This document shows, piece after piece, positions 58 to 62,653 of a DNA stretch of 64,000 bases. Source of the DNA: Xanthomonas indica. Its GTDB lineage: Bacteria; Pseudomonadota; Gammaproteobacteria; Xanthomonadales; Xanthomonadaceae. The position numbers were made by a program, and so were the translations under genes. Positions within the stretch are counted from its first letter, which is position 1; each line of letters begins with the position of its first letter. The stretch is from assembly GCF_040529045.1 (NCBI RefSeq), contig NZ_CP131914.1, forward strand, positions 2,898,501 through 2,962,500, given 5' to 3'. The notes under the pieces are model-generated. The model was not told the origin of the DNA, did not search any database, and worked only from the letters and a program-made list of their open reading frames with translations.

Positions 58-456
58 GTAACTGGACATGGCCATTTCGCTGCCGGCCGTGCTGCGCAGT
101 GCAATAGCCGCCACTTGGGTCGCGCTTTCGCCGCCGGAAACCGACAAGCGAACTGGGCTGTGCTGCCAAACGTCCGGAGCACTTACCGTAGCAGGCCGCC
201 GGTGGGCGAGCCGGCACGCCTGCGAACCATTGGTTCGCGCGCCGGCGCAGCGCCCCCGCGCAGGCGCGGGGGCCGGGCTTCCGCTGCCGGAAACCGCAGG
301 GTCGGTCAGCGCGCAGCCAACTGCCGGAGCACGTACTGCAGCAGGCCGCCGTGGTGGGCGAGCCGGCGCGCTTGCGAACCATGGTTCGCGCGCCGGCGCA
401 GCGCCCCCGCGCTGGCGCGGGGGCCGGGCTTCTGCTGCCGGAAACCGCAGGGTCGG

Positions 457-3216
<2,760 letters not shown>

Positions 3217-45875: not shown

Positions 45876-48119
45876 TCAGAACTCCTGCCAGCTGTCGTCG
45901 CCAGCGGCGACGGCGACCGGCCGGGCCGCCGGCCGTACCGAACGCGCGGCCGGCTTGGCCGCCGGCTTGGCGGCCGACCGCGCGACCGCGCGGACCGGCG
46001 TGCTGGCCGCGGCCGGCTGGACGGCGTGACTGCCGTTGGCCTCGATCTTGAACACGGCCACGGCCTGGCTCAGCTGGCTGGCCTGTTCCTCCATCGACCG
46101 CGCCGCCGCGGTGGCTTCTTCCACCAGTGCCGCGTTCTGCTGGGTGGTCTCGTCCATCTGGGTGACGGTCTGGTTGACCTGCTCGATACCGGCCGACTGC
46201 TCCTGCGAGGCAGCGGCGATCTCGCCCATGATGTCGGTGACGCGCTGCACCGAGGTCACGATCTCCTGCATGGTCTTGCCTGCCTGGTCGACCAGCGCCG
46301 AGCCCTGGGCGACACGGCCGACGGAGTCGTCGATCAGACCCTTGATCTCCTTGGCGGCGTTGGCCGAGCGCTGCGCCAGGGTACGCACCTCGCTGGCGAC
46401 CACGGCGAAGCCGCGGCCCTGTTCGCCGGCACGCGCGGCTTCGACCGCCGCGTTGAGCGCCAGGATGTTGGTCTGGAACGCAATGCCGTCGATGACGCTG
46501 ATGATGTCGGCGATCTTCTTCGACGAGGCCTCGATCCCGCTCATGGTCTCGACCACCTGGCCGACCACCGCGCCGCCCTGCGAGGCGACCGCAGCCGCAC
46601 CGGTGGCGAGCTGGTTGGCCTGACGCGCGTGTTCGGCGTTCTGCTTGACGGTGGAGGTCAGTTCCTCCATCGACGCAGCGGTTTCTTCCAGGCTGGCGGC
46701 CTGCTGCTCGGTGCGGCGCGACAGATCGTCGTTGCCGGCGGCGATCTCGCTGGCGGCGCCGTTGATGCTGACCGCCGCGGTCTGGATCCGCGCGACGATC
46801 GCCGCGAGTTGTTCGGCGGTGGCGTTGGCGTCGTCGCGCATGGTGGCGAACACGCCCTGGAACTGGCCGTGCATGCGCGCGGTCAGGTCGCCGGCGGCGA
46901 TCGACTGCAGCAGCGACGACAACGCCTGCAGGTTGCCGTCGGCGGTGGCCATCAGCTGGTTGAGGCTCTCGACCATCAGGCGGAAGTCGTACTGGAAGCG
47001 CTCGGCATCGCCGCGCACGCTGAAATCGCCGGCCGCCGCCGCGCCGGCCAGGTGCTTGATCTCGTGGTTCATCGCGGTGAGGTTCTGCTTCACCTTGTCC
47101 ATGGTCTCGGTGAGCACGGCCTTTTCGCCGGGCAGCCGGTCCATGTCGTCGGACAGGTCGCCGATGGCGTAGCGGCCCATGATCTGCGCTAGGCGCAGCT
47201 TCACCGCGATGTGCGAGGCCGCCAGGGCGTTGCTGTCGCGGACCATGCGGCCGTAGTCGCCGGGGAACACGGTTTCGTCCATGCGGAAACTGATCTGGCC
47301 CGCATCGTGGCGCTGGGCCATCTCGGCCTGCGCGGCGAGCACCGACTGCAACTGGCTCTGCATCTTGTCCATGCTCAGCAGCAGCACGCCGGCCTCGTCC
47401 TTGCTGCGCAGGTCGATCGTATTGTCGAGCTTGCCGCGGGCGATGGCGTCGGCCACGCCGATCGCGGTGCCGAGACGCTTGAGCAGCTGCCGGCGGATCA
47501 GGACCGCCAGGCCGATCGCGGCCACGATCACCAGCAGGTTGCCCAGCAGGATGGCCCACTTGTTCTGCGCGCGCACGGTGTCCAGGGTCGCGCTGCGCTT
47601 GGTCAGCAGGCCGCGTTCCTCGTCGGTGAACTCACCGAGCAGGCTGCGGATCGTTTGCATGGCCTTGCGGTCGCGGGCCTGGCCGAACTCGGCGGCGATC
47701 TGCGCCGGATCGTTGGATTGGGTGCGCAGCGCGATGATCTGCTTCTCGACGCCGACCAGATCGTCGAACGCCGCATGCACCTTCTCCAAGCGTGCCTGCT
47801 GGCGCGGATTGTCCGCGGTCAGGCGCTTGGCTTCGGCGAAATTCTTGTCGAACGCGGCCAGGCCGGCAGTGAACGGTTGCAGATGCTGCTGCTGGCCCGC
47901 CAGCAGGTAGCCGCGCGAGCCGGTTTCCACGTTGAGGGCGTCGATTTCCATCATGTCGCCGGTGGCCAGCACCTTGTAGGTGTGGTCGTTCATGTCGGCG
48001 GCATTGTTGAGCGAGAACAGGCTGCTCAGGCTGATCGAGCCGATGATCACCGTGATCAACACGATGATCGCAAAACTGAGTGCGAGCCTGGCGGAAAGAC
48101 TGAGATTCTTGAGCGTCAT
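45876..48119 (-). CDS. Methyl-accepting chemotaxis protein with CHASE3-like sensor, SWQEF tail (MCP 10)
   Basis: The 747-residue receptor has TM1 at 9-32 and a periplasmic helical domain of CHASE3 type (about 37-180). The hallmark [19 protein letters not shown] lies in it. TM2 is near 188-207, then [13 protein letters not shown]-type poly-HAMP and an intact tip. The linker before the tail is a Pro/Ala/Arg repeat-like run ([20 protein letters not shown]). The tail is SWQEF. AGGA precedes the ATG. Its leader is strikingly AT-rich. The CHASE3 signal is unknown. Confidence 0.95.
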
Positions 48120-48579: not shown

Positions 48580-50841
48580 TCAGAACTCCTGCCAGTCGGT
48601 GCCGCCGGCTGCAACGGCGGCGGCGCTCTTGGTCATCGGCCGGTGCACGGCCGTGCGCGGGGCCGGCGTCTTGACCGGCCGCCGTGCGCTGGCGCTGGCC
48701 AGTGCCGATGGCGGAACGGACGCGCGGTGGGCTGCCGCCGGCGCCTGCTGGTCGATCTTGAACAGGGCCACGGCCTGGCTCAGCTGGCCAGCCTGATCCT
48801 CCATCGAACGGGCCGCGGCGGTGGCTTCCTCCACCAGCGCGGCATTCTGCTGGGTGGTTTCGTCCATCTGCATCACGGTCTGGTTGACCTGCTCGATGCC
48901 GGCGGACTGCTCCTGCGAGGCCGCGGAGATGTCGCCCATGATGTCGGTGACGCGCTGCACCGAGCTCACGATCTCGGTCATGGTCCTGCCGGCCTGGTCG
49001 ACCAGGGCCGAACCCTGCGCGACGCGGCTCACCGAGTCGTCGATCAGGGTCTTGATCTCCTTGGCCGCATTCGACGAACGCTGGGCGAGGGTGCGTACTT
49101 CGCTGGCCACGACGGCGAAGCCGCGGCCCTGTTCGCCGGCGCGCGCCGCTTCGACGGCGGCGTTCAAGGCCAGGATGTTGGTCTGGAAGGCGATGCCATC
49201 GATCACCGAGATGATGTCGGCGATCTTCTTCGAGGAGGCCTCGATGCCGCTCATGGTCTGCACGACCTGGCCGACCACGTCGCCGCCCTGCGAGGCGACG
49301 GCCGCTGCGCCGCTGGCGAGCTGATTGGCCTGGCGCGCGTGCTCGGCGTTCTGCTTCACGGTGGAGGTCAGTTCCTCCATCGAGGCGGCGGTTTCCTCCA
49401 GGCTGGCGGCCTGCTGCTCGGTGCGCCGCGACAGGTCGTCGTTGCCGGTGGCGATCTCGCTGGCCGCGGCATTGATGCTGACCGCCGCGGTCTGGATACG
49501 CGCCACGATCGACGCCAACTGTTCGGTGGTGGCGTTGGCGTCGTCGCGCATGGTGGCGAACACGCCCTGGAAGTCGCCGTGCATGCGGACGGTGAGATCT
49601 CCGGCCGCGATCGACTGCAGCAGGGACGACAGCGCCTGCAGGTTGCCGTCTGCAGTCGCCATCAGCTGATTGAGGCTGTCGACCATCAGGCGGAAATCGT
49701 ACTGGAAGCGTTCGGCATCGCCGCGCACGCTGAAGTCGCCGGCCGCGGCGGCCCCGGCCAGGTGCTTGATCTCGGTGTTCATCGCGGTCAGGTTGTGCTT
49801 GACCGTGTCCATCGTCGCGGTGAGGCGGGCCTTCTCGCCGGGCAGGCGGTCCATGTCCTCGGACAGGTCGCCGATCGCATAGCGGCCCATGATCTGCGCC
49901 AAACGCTCGGTCACCGCGATATGTGCGGCGGCCAGCGCATTGCTGTCGCGGACCATGCGGCCGTAGTCGCCGGGAAACACGCTTTCGTCCATGCGGTAGC
50001 TGGTCTGGCCGGCGTCGTGGCGCTGGGCCATCTCCGCCTGCGCGGCGAGCACCGCCTGCAATTGCTGCTGCATGCGTCCCATGGCATTCAACAGGCGGCC
50101 GGTTTCGTCGCTGGCCTGGGTGCGCACGGCATTGTGCATGTCGCCGTTGGCGATCGCCTCGGCCGCGCGGGTCGCCAGGCGCAGCGGTGCGGTCAGGCTC
50201 TGAGTGATGGTCAGCGCCAGCAGTGCGCTGAGCGCGAGCGCGAACACGGTGCCGCCGATCAACAGCATGCGGCCACGTTCCATCGAATCCAGCGCCGACT
50301 GGTAGGCCTCGGCGGCCTGGGATTTTTGCCGATCGGCGAATTCGCGGATCTTGCTCTGCCATGCCAGGGTCGCCGGCAACGCGTCGCGATTGAGCATCTC
50401 CACGGCCTTGGCGGTGTCGCCCGCTTCGCGCGTTGCCACGATGGCGTCGTTGATCTTCTTCGCGGCGGCACGCTTGGCATCCATGTCCGCTCGCATCGCG
50501 CGGCCGGTCGGGGTGCTGGAGAGCGTGTCGATCTTGGCGCGTGCCGCTGCGTAGCGCTCGCGCTGTTTGCTGAACGTCTCCAGTGCCTGCTTGCGGATTG
50601 CCGGGTCGGTGGAGGTGGTGTAGGTGCTGAGCGCGACCAGCACGGAAGAATTGGCATCGAGCATCTGGTTGCTGAATTCGATCTTCGCCATGCGGTCCAG
50701 CACGATCATGTCCAGTTGCTTGCGCGCGTCGGCCATGCCGGACAGCCCGATGATCACCAGGACCACCGAAAGAAGAATCAGCAGGCCGAATGCGGCCGAC
50801 AGGCGCATCCCGACGTTGTAGCGTTGCAGAAAGCGGATCAT
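48580..50841 (-). CDS. Methyl-accepting chemotaxis protein, mosaic 4-helix-bundle receptor, DWQEF tail (MCP 11)
   Basis: The 753-residue receptor has the leader [19 protein letters not shown] and sensor of the MCP 6/7/12 group (TM1 about 13-33, TM2 about 190-212). After the first HAMP it switches to the [29 protein letters not shown] poly-HAMP of the MCP 1/5/9/10 group. A 242-bp identity to MCP 5 lies in that section. The gene therefore looks like a recombinant of the two subfamilies. The signalling tip is intact and the tail is DWQEF. AAGGAG stands seven bases before the ATG. A poor sigma-28-like match (ATCCGGAA-N11-GCCGATTC, 50881-50907) is the best promoter candidate. Confidence 0.95.
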
Positions 50842-50984: not shown

Positions 50985-53243
50985 TCAGAACTCCTGCCAG
51001 TCGCCGGTGCTGGCCTCGGCCAGTGCGGCGGCCCGCACTGGCGCCGGCGCCGGCCGCGGCGTGCGCGGGGGCGGCGTCGGCACCGCGCTGCGCGATGCGG
51101 CCGGACGCGCGATCCGTACCACGGTGGAGGTGGCTGGCGCGGCGCTTGCCGTGTCCAACTTGAACACCGCCACCGACTCGGTCAGGTGCCCGGCCTGTTC
51201 TTCCATGGAACGCGCTGCGGCGGTGGCCTCTTCCACCAGGGCCGCGTTCTGCTGCGTGGTTTCGTCCATCTGCATCACGGTCTGGTTGACCTGCTCGATG
51301 CCGGCCGACTGCTCCTGCGAGGCGGCGGCGATCTCGCCCATGATGTCGGTGACGCGCTGCACCGAACTCACGATCTCCTGCATGGTCTTGCCGGCCTGGT
51401 CGACCAGGACCGAGCCTTCGGCGACGCGTTCGACCGAGTCGTCGATCAGGTCCTTGATCTCCTTGGCGGCGTTGGCCGAGCGCTGCGCCAGCGTGCGCAC
51501 TTCGCTGGCGACCACGGCGAAGCCGCGGCCCTGTTCGCCGGCACGCGCGGCCTCCACCGCCGCGTTGAGTGCCAGGATGTTGGTCTGGAAGGCGATGCCG
51601 TCGATCACCGAGATGATGTCGGCAATCTTGCGCGAGGACGCCTCGATGCCGCTCATGGTCTGCACGACCTGGCCGACCACGCTGCCGCCATGCGAGGCGA
51701 CGCTGGCCGCACCGCTGGCGAGTTGATTGGCCTGGCGTGCATGCTCGGCGTTCTGCTTGACCGTGGAGGTCAGCTCTTCCATCGAGGCGGCGGTTTCCTC
51801 CAGGCTGGCGGCCTGCTGCTCGGTGCGCCGCGACAGGTCGTCGTTGCCGGTGGCGATCTCGCTGGCCGCGGCATTGATGCTGACCGCCGCGGTCTGGATG
51901 CGGCCGACGATGCCGGTCAACTGATCGGCGGTGGCATTGGCGTCGTCGCGCATGGTCGCGAACACGCCCTGGAAGTCGCCATGCATGCGCGCGGTGAGGT
52001 CGCCGATGGCGATGGACTGCAGCAGGGCCGAGAGCTTGCCCAGGTTGCGGTCGCTGACCTCCATCATCGCATTGAGGTCCTGCACCATCAGGCGGAAGTC
52101 GTGCTGGAAGTGCGCGGCATCGCCGCGTGCGCTGAAGTCGCCGGCCGCGGCCGCCGCGGCCAGGCGCTTGATCTCGGTGTTGATCGCCAGCAGGCTGGCC
52201 TTGGCCGCGTCCATCGATTCGTGCAGCACCGCACGGCTGCCGGGCAGGCGGCGCGCGTCGCGGCGCAGGTCGCCGTTGGCGTATTCGTTGAGCACGCCGA
52301 TGGCGTCGACGATGGCGTCCAGGTGCTCGAACATCATGGTGTTGATGCCCTTGCTGAGCTCGCCGTACACGCCCGGGAAGTCCTGCGGCATGCGGTGGCT
52401 CATGTCCTTGTCGGCATGCAGCTCGATCATCAACGCGGTTTCGCTGGAGAAGCGCTGCAACTGTTGCTGCATCGCGTCCATCGCCAGCAGCAGGCGGCCA
52501 GGCTCGTCGCGGGCGTCGGTGGCGACGTCGTTGTCCAGACGCCCGGCGGCGATGGCCTCGGCGGCGCGGGTGGCGCGCGACAGTGGCCCGGTCAGGCTGC
52601 GGGTGATCGTCCAGGCCAGCAGGCCGCTGACGAGCAGCACCGCCAGGCCGCCGGCGATCAGCATGTTGCGGCCAGCTGCCATCGCCTGGGTCGCCTTGGC
52701 ATAGGCGTGCTTCATCTGCACATCCTGGATATCGGCGTTCTCACGGATCTTGGCCTGCCAGGCGGCGGTGGCCGGCCGTGCCTGCTCGCTCAGCACCGCC
52801 TGCGCCTCGGCATTGCGATTTGCGGCCCCCAGTGCGATGACCTGATCGTTGAGCTTGCCGGCGACGACGCGATCGGCGTCGATCTCCGCGCGCAGCTTCC
52901 TGATCTTCTCTTCGGTGGCCGGAAACGCCTCGAGTTGCCTGCGCATTTCCGCATAGTGCCGGCGATGCTCCTGGATGTCCGCCAGCGCCTGCTGGTTGAG
53001 CTCGCTGTTGGAGACCATCGTCAAGGTGCCGAGCGCGATCAGGATGTTGGCGTTGTCGTCGAGCATGCCGTTGCTGATGCGGACCTTCTCGACGTTGACC
53101 TTGACGATGCGGTCTAGCTCGCTGCGCGCCTGCGACATGGACAGCAGTCCAGCGGCGATCAGCAGGCAGGACAGCACGATCAACAGGCCGAATGCGCCGC
53201 CGAGACGGCGGCCGACGTTGTAGCGTTGCAAGAACGAAGTCAT
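50985..53243 (-). CDS. Methyl-accepting chemotaxis protein, 4-helix-bundle sensor, DWQEF tail (MCP 12)
   Basis: The 752-residue receptor has the leader [21 protein letters not shown]1 about 13-33, a helical sensor (about 34-190, [20 protein letters not shown]) and TM2 about 191-212. [20 protein letters not shown] poly-HAMP and an intact tip follow. The tail is DWQEF. It is closest to MCP 7 in the sensor, and a 242-bp HAMP segment is identical to MCP 6. The ATG at 53243 matches the shared leader; the open frame extends 38 codons further without support. It is the receptor nearest cheA and has its own promoter and leader of about 280 bp. Confidence 0.95.
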
Positions 53244-53525
53244 GTGTGGAACCCCTTTTATCGAGTGAGGAGCGGTTGCGCGCTCCAACGCGAAAGGGAG
53301 ACCCCGCCGTGGCGCCTGGCGGATGTGGCGAAATGCGCAACGGAAATCCGTGAGCACACGAACGCGCGCGCCGCGAGAGCGCCGACATCGAACGGTGTTT
53401 CCCTTTCCCCTGCAACATTCGCTTCAGCGCCCGGCGTGTGACGGCCGTGCGTTCCCCCTGAAGCGCCGGCACGCCTCCCCAGGCGGCCGGTTCGCGCACG
53501 TAGACAAAAACTGTGCGCTCTATTG

Positions 53526-56548: not shown

Positions 56549-57928
56549 TCAGTGCAGCAGTTGCTCGGCGTCGAGCAGGATCATCGGCTGTTGCGCCAGC
56601 CGCGCCACGCCGCGGAACAGATGGTTGGAAATGCGGCAGATGCGGGCATTGTCCGGCGGCTCGATCTGCTGGTCGCTGAGGCTGGCCACGTCTTCCACCG
56701 CGGACACGCGCAGGCCCAGGGTCTCGCCGTTCTCTTCCAGCACCACCACCCGGGTCTGCATGTCCATCTCGATCGGCGCGGCGCCCAGGTGCACGCCCAG
56801 ATCGAGCACCGGCACCACCTGTCCGCGCAGGTTCATGATGCCGAGCATCGCCGGCGGCGTGCCGCGCAGCGCCAGCAGCGGCACCGGCAGCACCACCTCC
56901 TGCACCTTCAGCAGTTCCAGCGCGTAGGCCTGCTCGCCGCAGCGCAGGCGCAGCCAGCGGGTGCGGCGCTCGGCCAGGCGGTCGGGGGCGATGGCCGAGC
57001 CGTGCGGCACGCTCGGGGCCATGAACGACTGCAGGTTCGGCGGCAGCTTGGCGCCGGCCGCCTGTGCGCGGCTGGCTTCGGCGCGGCGCTCCGGCGGCAC
57101 CGCCATCGGCGGGCGCTTGACCGCACGCGCGGCGGCGGCATCGTCTTCGGCAGCCAGGTCGCGCGGCACGGTGGCGCGCTGCCGTTCCATCGCCGCGACC
57201 GCATCCAGGTCGGCCTGGCGCTCGGCCTGCTGGGCCGGGGTCAGCGCGGCAGGCGCGGGTGCGTCCTGCGACATGATGCCGGCCAGGGCTGGATCCGAAT
57301 CGGCCTCGGCCAGGACCGCGGCAGCGATCTGTTCGGGCGTCGGGCCGGCCGGGGCGGGCGCCAGCGCTTGCTGCGACATGATGCCGGCCAGGGCCGGATC
57401 GGAATCGGCCTCGGCCAGGACCGCGGCAGCGATCTGCTCGGGCGTGGGACCGGCCGGGGCGGGCGCCAGCGCTTGCTGCGACATGATGCCGGCCAGGGCC
57501 GGATCGGAATCGGCCTCGGCCAGGACTGCGGCAGCGATCTGTTCGGGCGTCGGGCCGGCCGGGGCGGGCGCCAGCGCTTGCTGCGACATGATGCCGGCCA
57601 GGGCCGGATCGGAGTCGGCCTCGGCCAGGACCGCGGCGGCGATCTGTTCGGGCGTGGGACCGGTCGGGGCAGGCGCCAGCGCTTGCTGCGACATGATGCC
57701 GGCCAGGGCCGGATCGGCATCGGCCTCGGCCAGGACCGCGGCAGCGATTTGCTCGGGCGTGGGACCGGCCGCGGCTGCAGCAGCCGCAGCCGGCACCGTC
57801 TCCTCGGCGTCCGCCTGCATGTCGGCGACCGCGACCGGCGCGGGGCTCGGCGGCGTCTTCTGCTCTTCGGCGATCACGTCGTGGAGCAGGCCTTCCAGAT
57901 AATCGTCGATGATGCCAGGGGTGCTCAT
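56549..57928 (-). CDS. parP: ParP-like CheW-domain protein with N-terminal tandem repeats
   Basis: The 459-residue protein has an acidic N-terminus (MSTPGIIDDYLEGLLHDV), five 35-residue repeats of the form GPTPEQIAAAVLAEADSDPA plus LAGIMSQQALAPAPA (about 55-225), a Gln/Arg-rich segment (230-300) and a C-terminal CheW-like domain (about 312-459, RWLRLRCGEQAYALELLKVQ, LGIMNLRGQVVPVLDLG). Its ATG overlaps the stop of the ParA-like gene. In Vibrio and Pseudomonas the gene following the ParA-like parC in the che operon is parP. ParP binds ParC through a Pro-rich N-terminus and binds CheA and receptors through its CheW-like domain to hold arrays at the pole. The name here rests on context and domain order. 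Residues in the repeats suggest short amphipathic helices between Pro linkers. Confidence 0.82.
   Translation of the reverse strand: MSTPGIIDDYLEGLLHDVIAEEQKTPPSPAPVAVADMQADAEETVPAAAAAAAAGPTPEQIAAAVLAEADADPALAGIMSQQALAPAPTGPTPEQIAAAVLAEADSDPALAGIMSQQALAPAPAGPTPEQIAAAVLAEADSDPALAGIMSQQALAPAPAGPTPEQIAAAVLAEADSDPALAGIMSQQALAPAPAGPTPEQIAAAVLAEADSDPALAGIMSQDAPAPAALTPAQQAERQADLDAVAAMERQRATVPRDLAAEDDAAAARAVKRPPMAVPPERRAEASRAQAAGAKLPPNLQSFMAPSVPHGSAIAPDRLAERRTRWLRLRCGEQAYALELLKVQEVVLPVPLLALRGTPPAMLGIMNLRGQVVPVLDLGVHLGAAPIEMDMQTRVVVLEENGETLGLRVSAVEDVASLSDQQIEPPDNARICRISNHLFRGVARLAQQPMILLDAEQLLH
57254..57766 (-). repeat. Five 105-bp tandem repeats inside the parP-like gene
   Basis: The marker ACATGATGCCGGCCAGGG recurs at 57271, 57376, 57481, 57586 and 57691, exactly 105 bp apart. 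Units differ at only a few bases, mostly synonymous. The last unit diverges after MSQ. The in-frame length means copy number could vary without breaking the gene. Confidence 0.95.
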
Positions 57929-58707
57929 GCGGCTTGCTCCATCGGTGTCGCATCGCTGGCCAGCAGCCATTCCAGCGCGCGGCGGTAGGCGGCCAGGCCG
58001 CGGCCGGGGTAGTCGCCGGGCACGCCGGCCACGGTCAGCGCCTTGACGTTGCAGATCTTGGTATCGACCGGGATGGCGTCTTCCCACACCCGCTCGCCGT
58101 AGCTGTCCTGCATCTGCCGCAGGGTCTCGTTGCCGGCACGGGTGCGCTTGTCGAACAGGGTCGGCAGGATCGAGGCGGGCAGGGGGCGGCGCCGCGAGCG
58201 CTCGACCATGTCCACGGTGCGGACCATGCTGGCCAGGCCGTGCAGGGCCAGCGGTTCGGCCTGGGTCGGGATGATCACGCGGTCGGCCGCGGCCAGCGCG
58301 TTGATCATCAGCAGGCCCAGGGTCGGCGGGCAGTCGAGCAGGATGTAGTCGTGCTGGCCGGCGTGGCGGGCCATGGCCTGCTGCAGCGCCAGGCCCAGGC
58401 CGGGCTGGTTGGCGCTGCGCCGTTCCAGCGTGGCCAGCGCGGTCTGCCCGCAGACGAAGCTCAGGCGCTCGACCGCGGTGTCGCGGGCCAGTGCGGCGAG
58501 CTCGCCCGGCGGGGACGCGAACAGGTCGAGCACGCCCGGCGGCTGCGGTTCCTGCGGCACGTCGAAGGCCCGGGTCAGCGAGGCGTGCGGATCGAGATCG
58601 AGCATCAGCACGCGGTGCCCGAGCATGGCCAGCCCACGGCCCATGGCCAGCGTGGTGGTGGTCTTGCCCACGCCACCTTTCTGGTTGGCGATCGCCCAGA
58701 TGCGCAT
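57925..58707 (-). CDS. parC: ParA-family ATPase, ParC-like polar localiser of chemotaxis arrays
   Basis: The 260-residue ParA/MinD-type ATPase has a deviant Walker A (NQKGGVGKTTTTLAMG), Walker A' (LMLDLDPHASLTRAF) and Walker B (YILLDCPPTLGLLM). It lies between motD and the CheW-like parP, the order seen in Pseudomonas and Vibrio che operons, where this ATPase recruits chemotaxis proteins to the flagellated pole. It is not a chromosome-partition gene: no parB or parS context is present. It overlaps motD by one base and parP by four. Confidence 0.85.
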   Translation of the reverse strand: MRIWAIANQKGGVGKTTTTLAMGRGLAMLGHRVLMLDLDPHASLTRAFDVPQEPQPPGVLDLFASPPGELAALARDTAVERLSFVCGQTALATLERRSANQPGLGLALQQAMARHAGQHDYILLDCPPTLGLLMINALAAADRVIIPTQAEPLALHGLASMVRTVDMVERSRRRPLPASILPTLFDKRTRAGNETLRQMQDSYGERVWEDAIPVDTKICNVKALTVAGVPGDYPGRGLAAYRRALEWLLASDATPMEQAA

Positions 58708-60904: not shown

Positions 60905-62653
60905 TCAAGCCTTCAAGCCATCCACATCCAGGATCAGCGCCAGGCGGCCGTCGCCGATCAGGGTGGCGCCGGCGTAGCCGGGCAGGCCACGCAGGGAGCG
61001 CGGCAGCGGCTTGATCACCACTTCCTCGCGGCCGCGGACCTGGTCCACCACCAGGCCCATGCGCGATTCGCCGGCCTGCAGCACCACCACGGTGAGCAGC
61101 GGCAGTTGCGGGGCGTCGATGTTGAGCCACTGGCGCAGGTCCACCAGCGGCAGGGTGTGCGACTGCCGGTCGAGCACGGCGCGGCCGTCGAACCAGCCCA
61201 GCGAGCGGCGCGGCGCATGCAGCACTTCGACCACGCGCGCCAGCGGCAGCGCGTAGACGGTGTCGCCGGCCTGCACCAGCAGGGTCGGCAGGATCGCCAG
61301 GGTCAACGGCACGCGGATCAGGAAGCGGCTGCCGCGGCCCAGCTCCGACTGGATCTGGATCTGCCCGCTGAGTTCGCGGATGCGCGACTGCACCACGTCC
61401 ATGCCGACGCCGCGGCCGGAGATGTCGGTGACTTCGGACTTGGTCGAGAAGCCGGGCAGGAACACCAGGTGCAGGCATTCCTCGGTGCTCAGGCGGGCCG
61501 CGGCCTCGGGGTCGATCAGGCCCTTCTCGCGTGCCTTGGCGCGCAGCCGTTCCGGGTCGATGCCGGCGCCGTCGTCCTGCACCTCGATGCTGACGTAGTC
61601 GCCTTCCTGCTGCGCCGACAGGCGCACGTGGCCGCCGCGCGGCTTGCCGGTGGCCTCGCGCAGCGCCGGCGCCTCGATGCCGTGGTCGATGGCATTGCGC
61701 ACCAGGTGCACCAGCGGATCGGCCAGCGCCTCGACCAGGTTGCGGTCCAGTTCGGTGTCGGCGCCGATCAGTTCCAGTTCCACTTCCTTGTTGAGGGAGC
61801 GGGCGACGTCGCGCGCCACCTTGGGGAAGCGCGAGAACACCTTGCCGACCGGCTGCATGCGCGTGCGCATCACCGCCGACTGCAGGCGCGCGGTGGCGAT
61901 GTCCAGGCTGCTGACCGCGCGATCCAGTTCCTCGTCGCGCAGGCGCACGCGCAGGGTCTTGAGCCGGTTGCGCGAGAGCACCAGTTCGCCGATCAGGTTG
62001 ACGATCGCGTCCAGGCGCTTGGTGTCCACGCGCACGGTGTGTTCGGGCTCGGCGGCCTTGGCCGGGGCGGCCGCGGCCTTGGGCGCGGGGCTGGGTGCGC
62101 GCGGCGCCGGCTGCAGCGCCTGCGGCGTGGCCGCCGGCGGCGCATCGCCGTGCAACTGGTCCAGCAGCGCCTCGAATTCGTCGTCGCTGATCAGGTCCGC
62201 ATCGCCGGCTGCGGCGGCCTTGGGCGCGGGCGCCGGCGCGGCGCTCTTGGCCGGTGCCGGCGCCGGGGCGGCGTCGCCGTGCGCATCGAACTGCGCGATC
62301 AGCTCAGGCGGCGCGCGCGGCGGCTCCTGGCCGCTGCCGAAGGCGTCGAGCATCGACTGCAGATAGTCCAGCGACTGCTGCGCGGCGTCGAAGTGCCGCG
62401 CCTGCAAGGTGGCCTGGCCGGCACGGGCCATGCCCAGGGTTTCCTCCGCGGCGTGGCACAGCTCGACCATGGCGTTGATCGCCAGAAAGCCGGCGCCGCC
62501 CTTGAGCGTATGGAAGCCGCGGAACACGGCGTTGAGCTGGCCGCTGTCCTCTGGCGCCTGCTCCAGCGACACCAACTGCTCGCCGAGCCGGTCCAGGATC
62601 TCCTGGGCCTCGATGATGAAATCGGCAGCGATGTCGTCGGGTACGGCGCTCAT
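60905..62653 (-). CDS. cheA: Chemotaxis histidine kinase CheA (flagellar-block copy)
   Basis: This 582-residue kinase has an HPt/P1 domain with His48 (FRGFHTLKGGAGF). A long Ala/Pro linker follows, carrying the acidic motif DLISDDEFEALLDQLHG (about 153-169). P3 (about 215-275, RLDAIVNLIGELVLSRNRLK) comes next, then P4 (LVHLVRNAIDHGIEAP, DDGAGID, SGRGVGMDVVQSR) and P5. No classical P2 is evident; the DDEFEALLDQLHG motif may serve as a docking peptide. It follows cheZ by four bases in the fliA-cheY-cheZ-cheA order of Pseudomonas-type polar flagellates and should control the motor through the adjacent CheY. Confidence 0.96.
   Translation of the reverse strand: MSAVPDDIAADFIIEAQEILDRLGEQLVSLEQAPEDSGQLNAVFRGFHTLKGGAGFLAINAMVELCHAAEETLGMARAGQATLQARHFDAAQQSLDYLQSMLDAFGSGQEPPRAPPELIAQFDAHGDAAPAPAPAKSAAPAPAPKAAAAGDADLISDDEFEALLDQLHGDAPPAATPQALQPAPRAPSPAPKAAAAPAKAAEPEHTVRVDTKRLDAIVNLIGELVLSRNRLKTLRVRLRDEELDRAVSSLDIATARLQSAVMRTRMQPVGKVFSRFPKVARDVARSLNKEVELELIGADTELDRNLVEALADPLVHLVRNAIDHGIEAPALREATGKPRGGHVRLSAQQEGDYVSIEVQDDGAGIDPERLRAKAREKGLIDPEAAARLSTEECLHLVFLPGFSTKSEVTDISGRGVGMDVVQSRIRELSGQIQIQSELGRGSRFLIRVPLTLAILPTLLVQAGDTVYALPLARVVEVLHAPRRSLGWFDGRAVLDRQSHTLPLVDLRQWLNIDAPQLPLLTVVVLQAGESRMGLVVDQVRGREEVVIKPLPRSLRGLPGYAGATLIGDGRLALILDVDGLKA

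Follow-up and report, generated by a model that had tools for sequence, protein, structure and literature searches.

Tandem repeats in the linker of a ParP-like chemosensory protein as candidate docking modules

Background

Holding of chemosensory arrays at the cell pole by ParC and ParP has been described for Vibrio. The AIF-type C-terminal domain of ParP forms a clade of its own, and its tryptophan is needed for CheA binding in Vibrio. The accessible portion of one report (PMC5706961) describes Vibrio ParP as binding CheA through the CheA domain LID, which is said there to be restricted to ParC/ParP systems, and describes a proline-rich linker in ParP at the place where the protein studied here carries its repeats. 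The part of a second report available to us (PMC7534058) places LID between P2 and P3 of CheA. The matches listed in our literature search include no study of the repeats described here and none of ParP in Xanthomonas.

The parC locus and the ParP-like protein

The window analysed here is a stretch of 64 kb, which its relatives mark as Xanthomonas chromosome, and the features of interest are collected in Table 1. The start of the ParP-like gene overlaps the stop of the gene for a ParC-type ATPase, whose best Pfam matches are AAA_31 and CbiA, and a MotB-type gene (by Pfam) and CheA lie upstream of the pair. This layout, in a flagellar and chemotaxis cluster, bears out the original prediction of a ParC-adjacent, ParP-like gene. 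A frame that we take to be MotA-like is also found upstream. Elsewhere in the window are three consecutive MCP receptor genes (45876-48119, 48580-50841 and 50985-53357), the signalling parts of which look nearly alike by eye.

Table 1. Features of the locus, in window coordinates.
Feature	Coordinates	Strand	Basis or remark
ParP-like CheW-domain protein P0001, 459 aa	56549-57928	minus	Pfam CheW, E 3.6e-31, residues 326-458
CheW-type domain	56555-56953	minus	Pfam, tree, PDB sequence matches
C-linker, residues 229-325	56954-57244	minus	dN/dS ~0.39
Repeat unit 5 (diverged end)	57245-57349	minus	in-frame reading and Tandem Repeats Finder
Repeat unit 4	57350-57454	minus	in-frame reading and Tandem Repeats Finder
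Repeat unit 3	57455-57559	minus	in-frame reading and Tandem Repeats Finder
Repeat unit 2	57560-57664	minus	in-frame reading and Tandem Repeats Finder
Repeat unit 1	57665-57769	minus	in-frame reading and Tandem Repeats Finder
Variable N-linker, residues 23-53	57770-57862	minus	dN/dS ~0.64 in genus
N-terminal helix GIIDDYLEGLLHDVIAEE, residues 5-22	57863-57916	minus	presumed ParC-contact or dimerisation element
ParC-type ParA-like ATPase	57925-58707	minus	directly upstream of the ParP-like gene
CheA (Hpt, dimerisation, HATPase, CheW domains)	60905-62653	minus	Pfam
Single LID-like motif DLISDDEFEALLDQLHG	62123-62215	minus	CheA linker, Hpt to dimerisation domain

The ATPase falls in a ParC group with a match at E < 1e-49 in 83 of 229 genomes of the class. 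In fifteen further class genomes the matches reach no better than 1.5e-38 and resemble chromosomal ParA; the split between ParC and chromosomal ParA was placed by eye at this gap in E-values. A ParP profile, used as query, yielded mostly frames of CheW length, and the ParPs of the class were collected by way of the ParC search. A separate CheW-type frame occurs downstream of parC in 24 of the 27 class loci, mostly with a ParP-like frame between the two; at one locus (L152) the CheW-type frame comes directly after parC. In the family set, what follows parC is a single protein that combines helix, linker and CheW-type domain.

CheW is the only domain that Pfam finds above its cut-offs in the protein. 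Matches to Rap1a (E 0.00046) and Ferredoxin_N (E 0.0048) at residues 192-223 fell below the cut-off and were taken as chance. Within the N-terminal helix, Asp 8, Tyr 10, Leu 11, Leu 14, and Leu 15 are invariant among 15 diverse family members. Of the 27 frames found after parC elsewhere in the Gammaproteobacteria, 23 have a pattern of the Y-L-x-x-L-L type close to their start; the remaining four are one divergent frame, one wrong frame, and two CheW frames. Residues 5-22 are also drawn as a helix in a low-confidence AF2 model. From its sequence, this helix is the likely ParC contact. It occurs once, upstream of the repeats, which speaks against the original suggestion of a contact made by the repeats themselves.

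The linker of ParP is present and is here filled by the repeats. The W-x-x-G signature of ParP is found in the last 60 residues of 23 of the 25 ParP-like rows from other Gammaproteobacteria (one of the two misses is a wrong frame and the other is cut short) and in the last 60 residues of none of the 69 family rows (64 distinct). Its tryptophan is a candidate counterpart of Vibrio W305. In lacking this signature the C-terminal domain departs from the AIF type, and for the same reason we call the protein "ParP-like". In a tree the C-terminal domain groups with CheW (support 89/81), but a joint clade with ParP-AIF is not rejected (AU p 0.438). The second of our trees was built without eight long rows (seven class ParPs and a single own CheW) and with the first 14 CheW rows of the class. 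The domain could derive from AIF or from CheW, and the trees do not decide between the two.

The repeat array

The repeats are real: five in-frame units of 105 bp, each encoding 35 residues, occupy 57245-57769 on the minus strand and make up residues 54-228 of the 459-residue protein. Tandem Repeats Finder called 57266-57775 with period 105, 4.9 copies, 94% matches and a score of 908, the highest of its 12 rows in the window, with the runner-up at 587. The extent first proposed, 57254-57766, spans nearly the whole array. The statement that the repeats form the N-terminal half of the protein is right in bulk, except that 53 residues, comprising the conserved helix and a variable linker, precede the array. 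At window 174-505 there is another tandem repeat, G+C-rich, with period 151, 2.2 copies and 93% match.

The unit core has a consensus of approximately P-T-P-E-x-I-A-A-x-V-L-A-E-A-D-x-D-P-A-L-A-G-I-M. Pairs of units in the window differ at 3-14 of 105 bases, and the differences are mostly synonymous (pS 0.203, pN 0.028). A search for degenerate extra units gave p < 0.05 before the array in none of 20 home-genus arrays, and after the array in one of 20, which is the chance level. The unit is not a copy of the N-terminal helix by profile (p 0.46).

AF2 draws two helices in each unit, broken at D-P, in models of both the full-length protein (21 sequences, mean pLDDT 49, pTM 0.19) and the array (7 sequences, mean pLDDT 60, pTM 0.16). 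Neither model shows confident packing, and the models are too weak to be used for anything beyond helix propensity. Foldseek with the array model found no match in the PDB, and a solenoid is supported by neither the model nor this search. TAL-effector repeats have a period of about 34; nine PDB sequences came up at E values of 1 or less, none of them a TAL effector. In one genome (G004) the repeat region is weakly matched (E 6.2e-5 to 7.5e-4, 27-30% identity) at C1:4429700-4430983 and 1317054-1317842, in two long frames (1004 and 1114 residues) that may represent another tandem-repeat protein.

Copy number and distribution

The gene is present in all 20 genomes of the window's genus and in all 35 genomes of a sister genus (g17), which we guess to be Xanthomonas in the strict sense. 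In the home genus there are 3, 4, 5 and 6 units in 3, 2, 9 and 6 genomes, respectively, and in all 20 arrays the units tile at exactly 35 residues. X. albilineans has three units, strain GPE 39 four, X. bonasiae five, and NCPPB 1128 and AmX2 six. In the sister genus, a loose pattern finds the core 3, 4, 5, 6 and 7 times in 1, 2, 4, 16 and 7 genomes, counts that rest on 30 of the 35 genomes, as five genes could not be read from the start. A stricter pattern also gives 3-7 units with different shares, and repeats can collapse in the fragmented assemblies among those compared. Core spacing there is mostly 24-27 residues, and the array of one MAG (L045, identical to L082) has a 31-residue pitch. 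Variation in copy number, originally predicted between strains, is seen between species, with 3-6 units in 20 home-genus genomes and 3-7 in 30 sister-genus genomes. In the only same-species pair compared (the window and G006) each array has five units, with no clean one-to-one match between them.

Of 198 family genomes searched with the core peptide (E up to 0.01), 19, belonging to four genera, have the module at parP; away from that locus it was met only on one contig fragment (G108). The core profile of the sister genus matches the window's units with a score of 22.2, against 11.3 for the best of 500 shuffles. The profile also finds 3-4 copies in one ParP from each of three other genera (L081, L091 and L112), with none of 300 shuffles scoring as high. 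The genus of L091 had already been met by the core peptide, so that six genera have the module overall. Stenotrophomonas rows fail the unit profile (best p about 0.04), as do the genera with Ala/Pro linkers. The Stenotrophomonas ParP-like linkers (L048, L055, L084 and others) have repeats of their own, of the EPTWDDLPAEVIYET and DDAALEAAFEAA types. In many Xanthomonadaceae the linker of the ParP-like protein is plain Ala/Pro and free of the module, so the module is not essential to the system.

Selection and age of the units

Of 99 bases, 9.1 differ between units within a genome, while units of different genomes differ at 14.5 of 99 when compared at the same position and at 15.0 of 99 at other positions. 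The nearest relative of a unit lies in its own genome in 59.8 of 98 cases, compared with a mean of 4.1 and a maximum of 10.3 in shuffles. This pattern indicates that the units are homogenised by concerted evolution, a turnover in which the sequence is retained. The original prediction read the near-identity of the units as a recent expansion. At fourfold sites the units of one array diverge by 0.170 in the window, 0.205 in G006 and 0.200 in G009, whereas the CheW domain of the window differs from those of five close genomes by 0.059-0.129 at such sites. The set of units thus looks older than those splits, and a recent expansion is not what these values suggest.

Pooled dN/dS values in the home genus (NG86, over non-independent pairs and in GC-rich DNA, as are all such values here) are 0.075 for the CheW domain, about 0.09 for the unit core, 0.20 for the N-terminal helix, 0.20 for the inter-unit spacer, 0.39 for the C-linker (here the stretch between the last unit core and the CheW domain), and 0.64 for the N-linker. 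The single N-terminal helix is therefore less constrained in this genus than the units. The sister-genus values are 0.061 for the CheW domain, 0.108 for the core, 0.050 for the N-terminal helix, and 0.386 and 0.241 for the flanking linkers; the search patterns demanded parts of the core, and the sister-genus units, being picked by pattern, lean towards conserved ones. The constant spacing of 35 in the home genus means that its 58 interior units did not owe their inclusion to the search pattern. In these, 19 of 35 positions are invariant, among them P3, T4, P5, and P33, which the search pattern did not demand. The unselected interior units thus argue that the core is conserved for its sequence and not for length alone. 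By these substitution rates the unit core is under strong purifying selection, at about the level of the CheW domain.

LID-like motifs in CheA and ParP

The window's CheA contains one stretch that could be LID, DLISDDEFEALLDQLHG, in the linker from the Hpt to the dimerisation domain, and this motif turned up in 30 of 35 sources scanned (the window and L039-L072). The LID-like pattern that we derived is I-[ST]-[DE]-[DE]-E-F-E-x-L-L-D-x-L-H-G. The motif is our candidate for LID. A 31-residue query with the motif matches 85 of 229 class genomes, namely 76 of the 83 ParC genomes and 9 of the 146 without ParC (Fisher p 1.3e-41). The motif is often tandem: by pattern, 18 of 25 class loci (L153-L177) have 2-4 copies, five have one, and two have none. 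Each of 11 Stenotrophomonas rows has two copies, and one genome (G267) gave five matches.

The motif is not confined to CheA. It occurs in 1-3 copies in the ParP linker of five of the 69 family rows, three from genus g16 (L096, L098 and L101) and two from genus g9 (L109 and L110), and in none of 25 class ParP rows. In g9, where the ParP linker (L109, L110) has 2-3 copies, the motif is absent before the dimerisation domain of CheA in all three readable genes (L209-L211, from four genomes; G183 could not be read), and a genome search found it solely in the parP frame in 4/4 genomes. The flagellar-type CheA of the sister genus (L217-L224) lacks the motif in all eight genomes, and whole-genome searches of four sister-genus genomes found it nowhere at E up to 0.05. 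At three sister-genus loci (L205-L207) the parC and parP genes are apart from cheA, and a frame that we assume to be TonB-receptor-like lies upstream of the Mot genes.

CheA has at most one LID-like motif in all five genera with ParP units and two or three in six of the eight others (Fisher p 0.021), in a post hoc test on 34 hand-chosen genomes from related genera that ignores relatedness. The window's unit is not a degenerate LID by profile (p 0.43). As the units are not LIDs by sequence, any replacement of LID by them would be functional only.

Proposed function

The ParP-like protein probably ties the chemosensory array to the cell pole. As an adaptor, it would contact ParC through its single N-terminal helix, and its CheW-type domain would sit in the base plate of the array. 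The five repeats would then be two-helix docking modules strung along the linker between these ends, each core a selected element that may bind a partner, and together they could provide several weak grips on one partner, with a gain in avidity. Candidate partners are ParC, CheA/CheW, a polar landmark, and ParP itself. Species would differ in the number of grips, from three to seven, through gain, loss and homogenisation of units, and the modules could help to hold arrays at the pole. Our favoured reading, on which we put about an even chance, is that the repeats are such a multivalent strip of short helical docking modules in the tether and not a simple spacer.

The original prediction also allowed that the repeats set reach, and they could act only as a spacer, with copy number fixing the length of the tether between the pole-bound end and the array. 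Within the genus, linker length does grow with copy number, from 217 residues with three units to 341 with six, and the proline-rich linker described in the accessible portion of PMC5706961 occupies the same place in Vibrio ParP. Across 68 family rows, however, linker length ranges from 56 to 339 residues, so no fixed reach is kept, and the core shows roughly the constraint of the CheW domain, which the surrounding linkers do not, while spacer and pitch drift. We consider pure reach unlikely. Near-neutral gain of repeats by slippage, in a disordered linker that tolerates it, would agree with the free change of copy number between species of one genus. It is very improbable given the low dN/dS of the core, a within-array divergence greater than that between close genomes, and a common core in six genera that is retained as the pitch shifts (35, mostly 24-27, or 31 residues).

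The units might instead pair with one another or with the CheW-type domains of neighbouring ParP-like proteins, giving a polar network or condensate. Each protein has several near-identical helical modules, LID-like motifs occur inside the ParP of some relatives, and the available part of PMC5706961 says that Vibrio ParP dimerises through its N-terminus; the array model, itself weak, gives no confident packing (pTM 0.16). Such self-association seems to us rather unlikely.

Returning to docking modules in the tether, the distribution of LID-like motifs raises the possibility, which we hold as tentative, that docking modules are portable and interchangeable within the CheA-ParP-ParC system. LID would be a tandem module normally carried by CheA, which in g9 moved to ParP in 2-3 copies. 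The flagellar CheA of the sister genus would have lost LID, with the polar grip passing to an unrelated ParP array of 3-7 modules; the window's genus, with one LID in CheA and 3-6 units in ParP, would be intermediate. Lineages whose CheA has lost the motif, or where it has moved, offer a test of whether LID serves CheA itself or is only a grip for which any component of the array could be the carrier. The natural copy-number series of a conserved tether module likewise offers a test of whether tether valency sets array placement.

Comparison with known systems

The protein resembles Vibrio ParP in following parC directly, in its N-terminal helix of the Y-L-x-x-L-L kind, in its long linker, and in its C-terminal CheW fold. 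It differs in having no W-x-x-G near the C-terminus in any of the family rows and in a linker that contains a conserved repeat array. Like the LID of CheA, the unit is a short module and lies in a linker within this system, and the LID-like motif is itself often tandem; unlike LID, which lies in CheA in most lineages seen, the window's unit is unrelated to it by profile. The C-terminal 135 residues, with their Pfam CheW and PDB CheW matches, are those of a CheW coupling protein, whereas the long N-terminal extension with its helix and repeats, and the position behind parC, set the protein apart from one.
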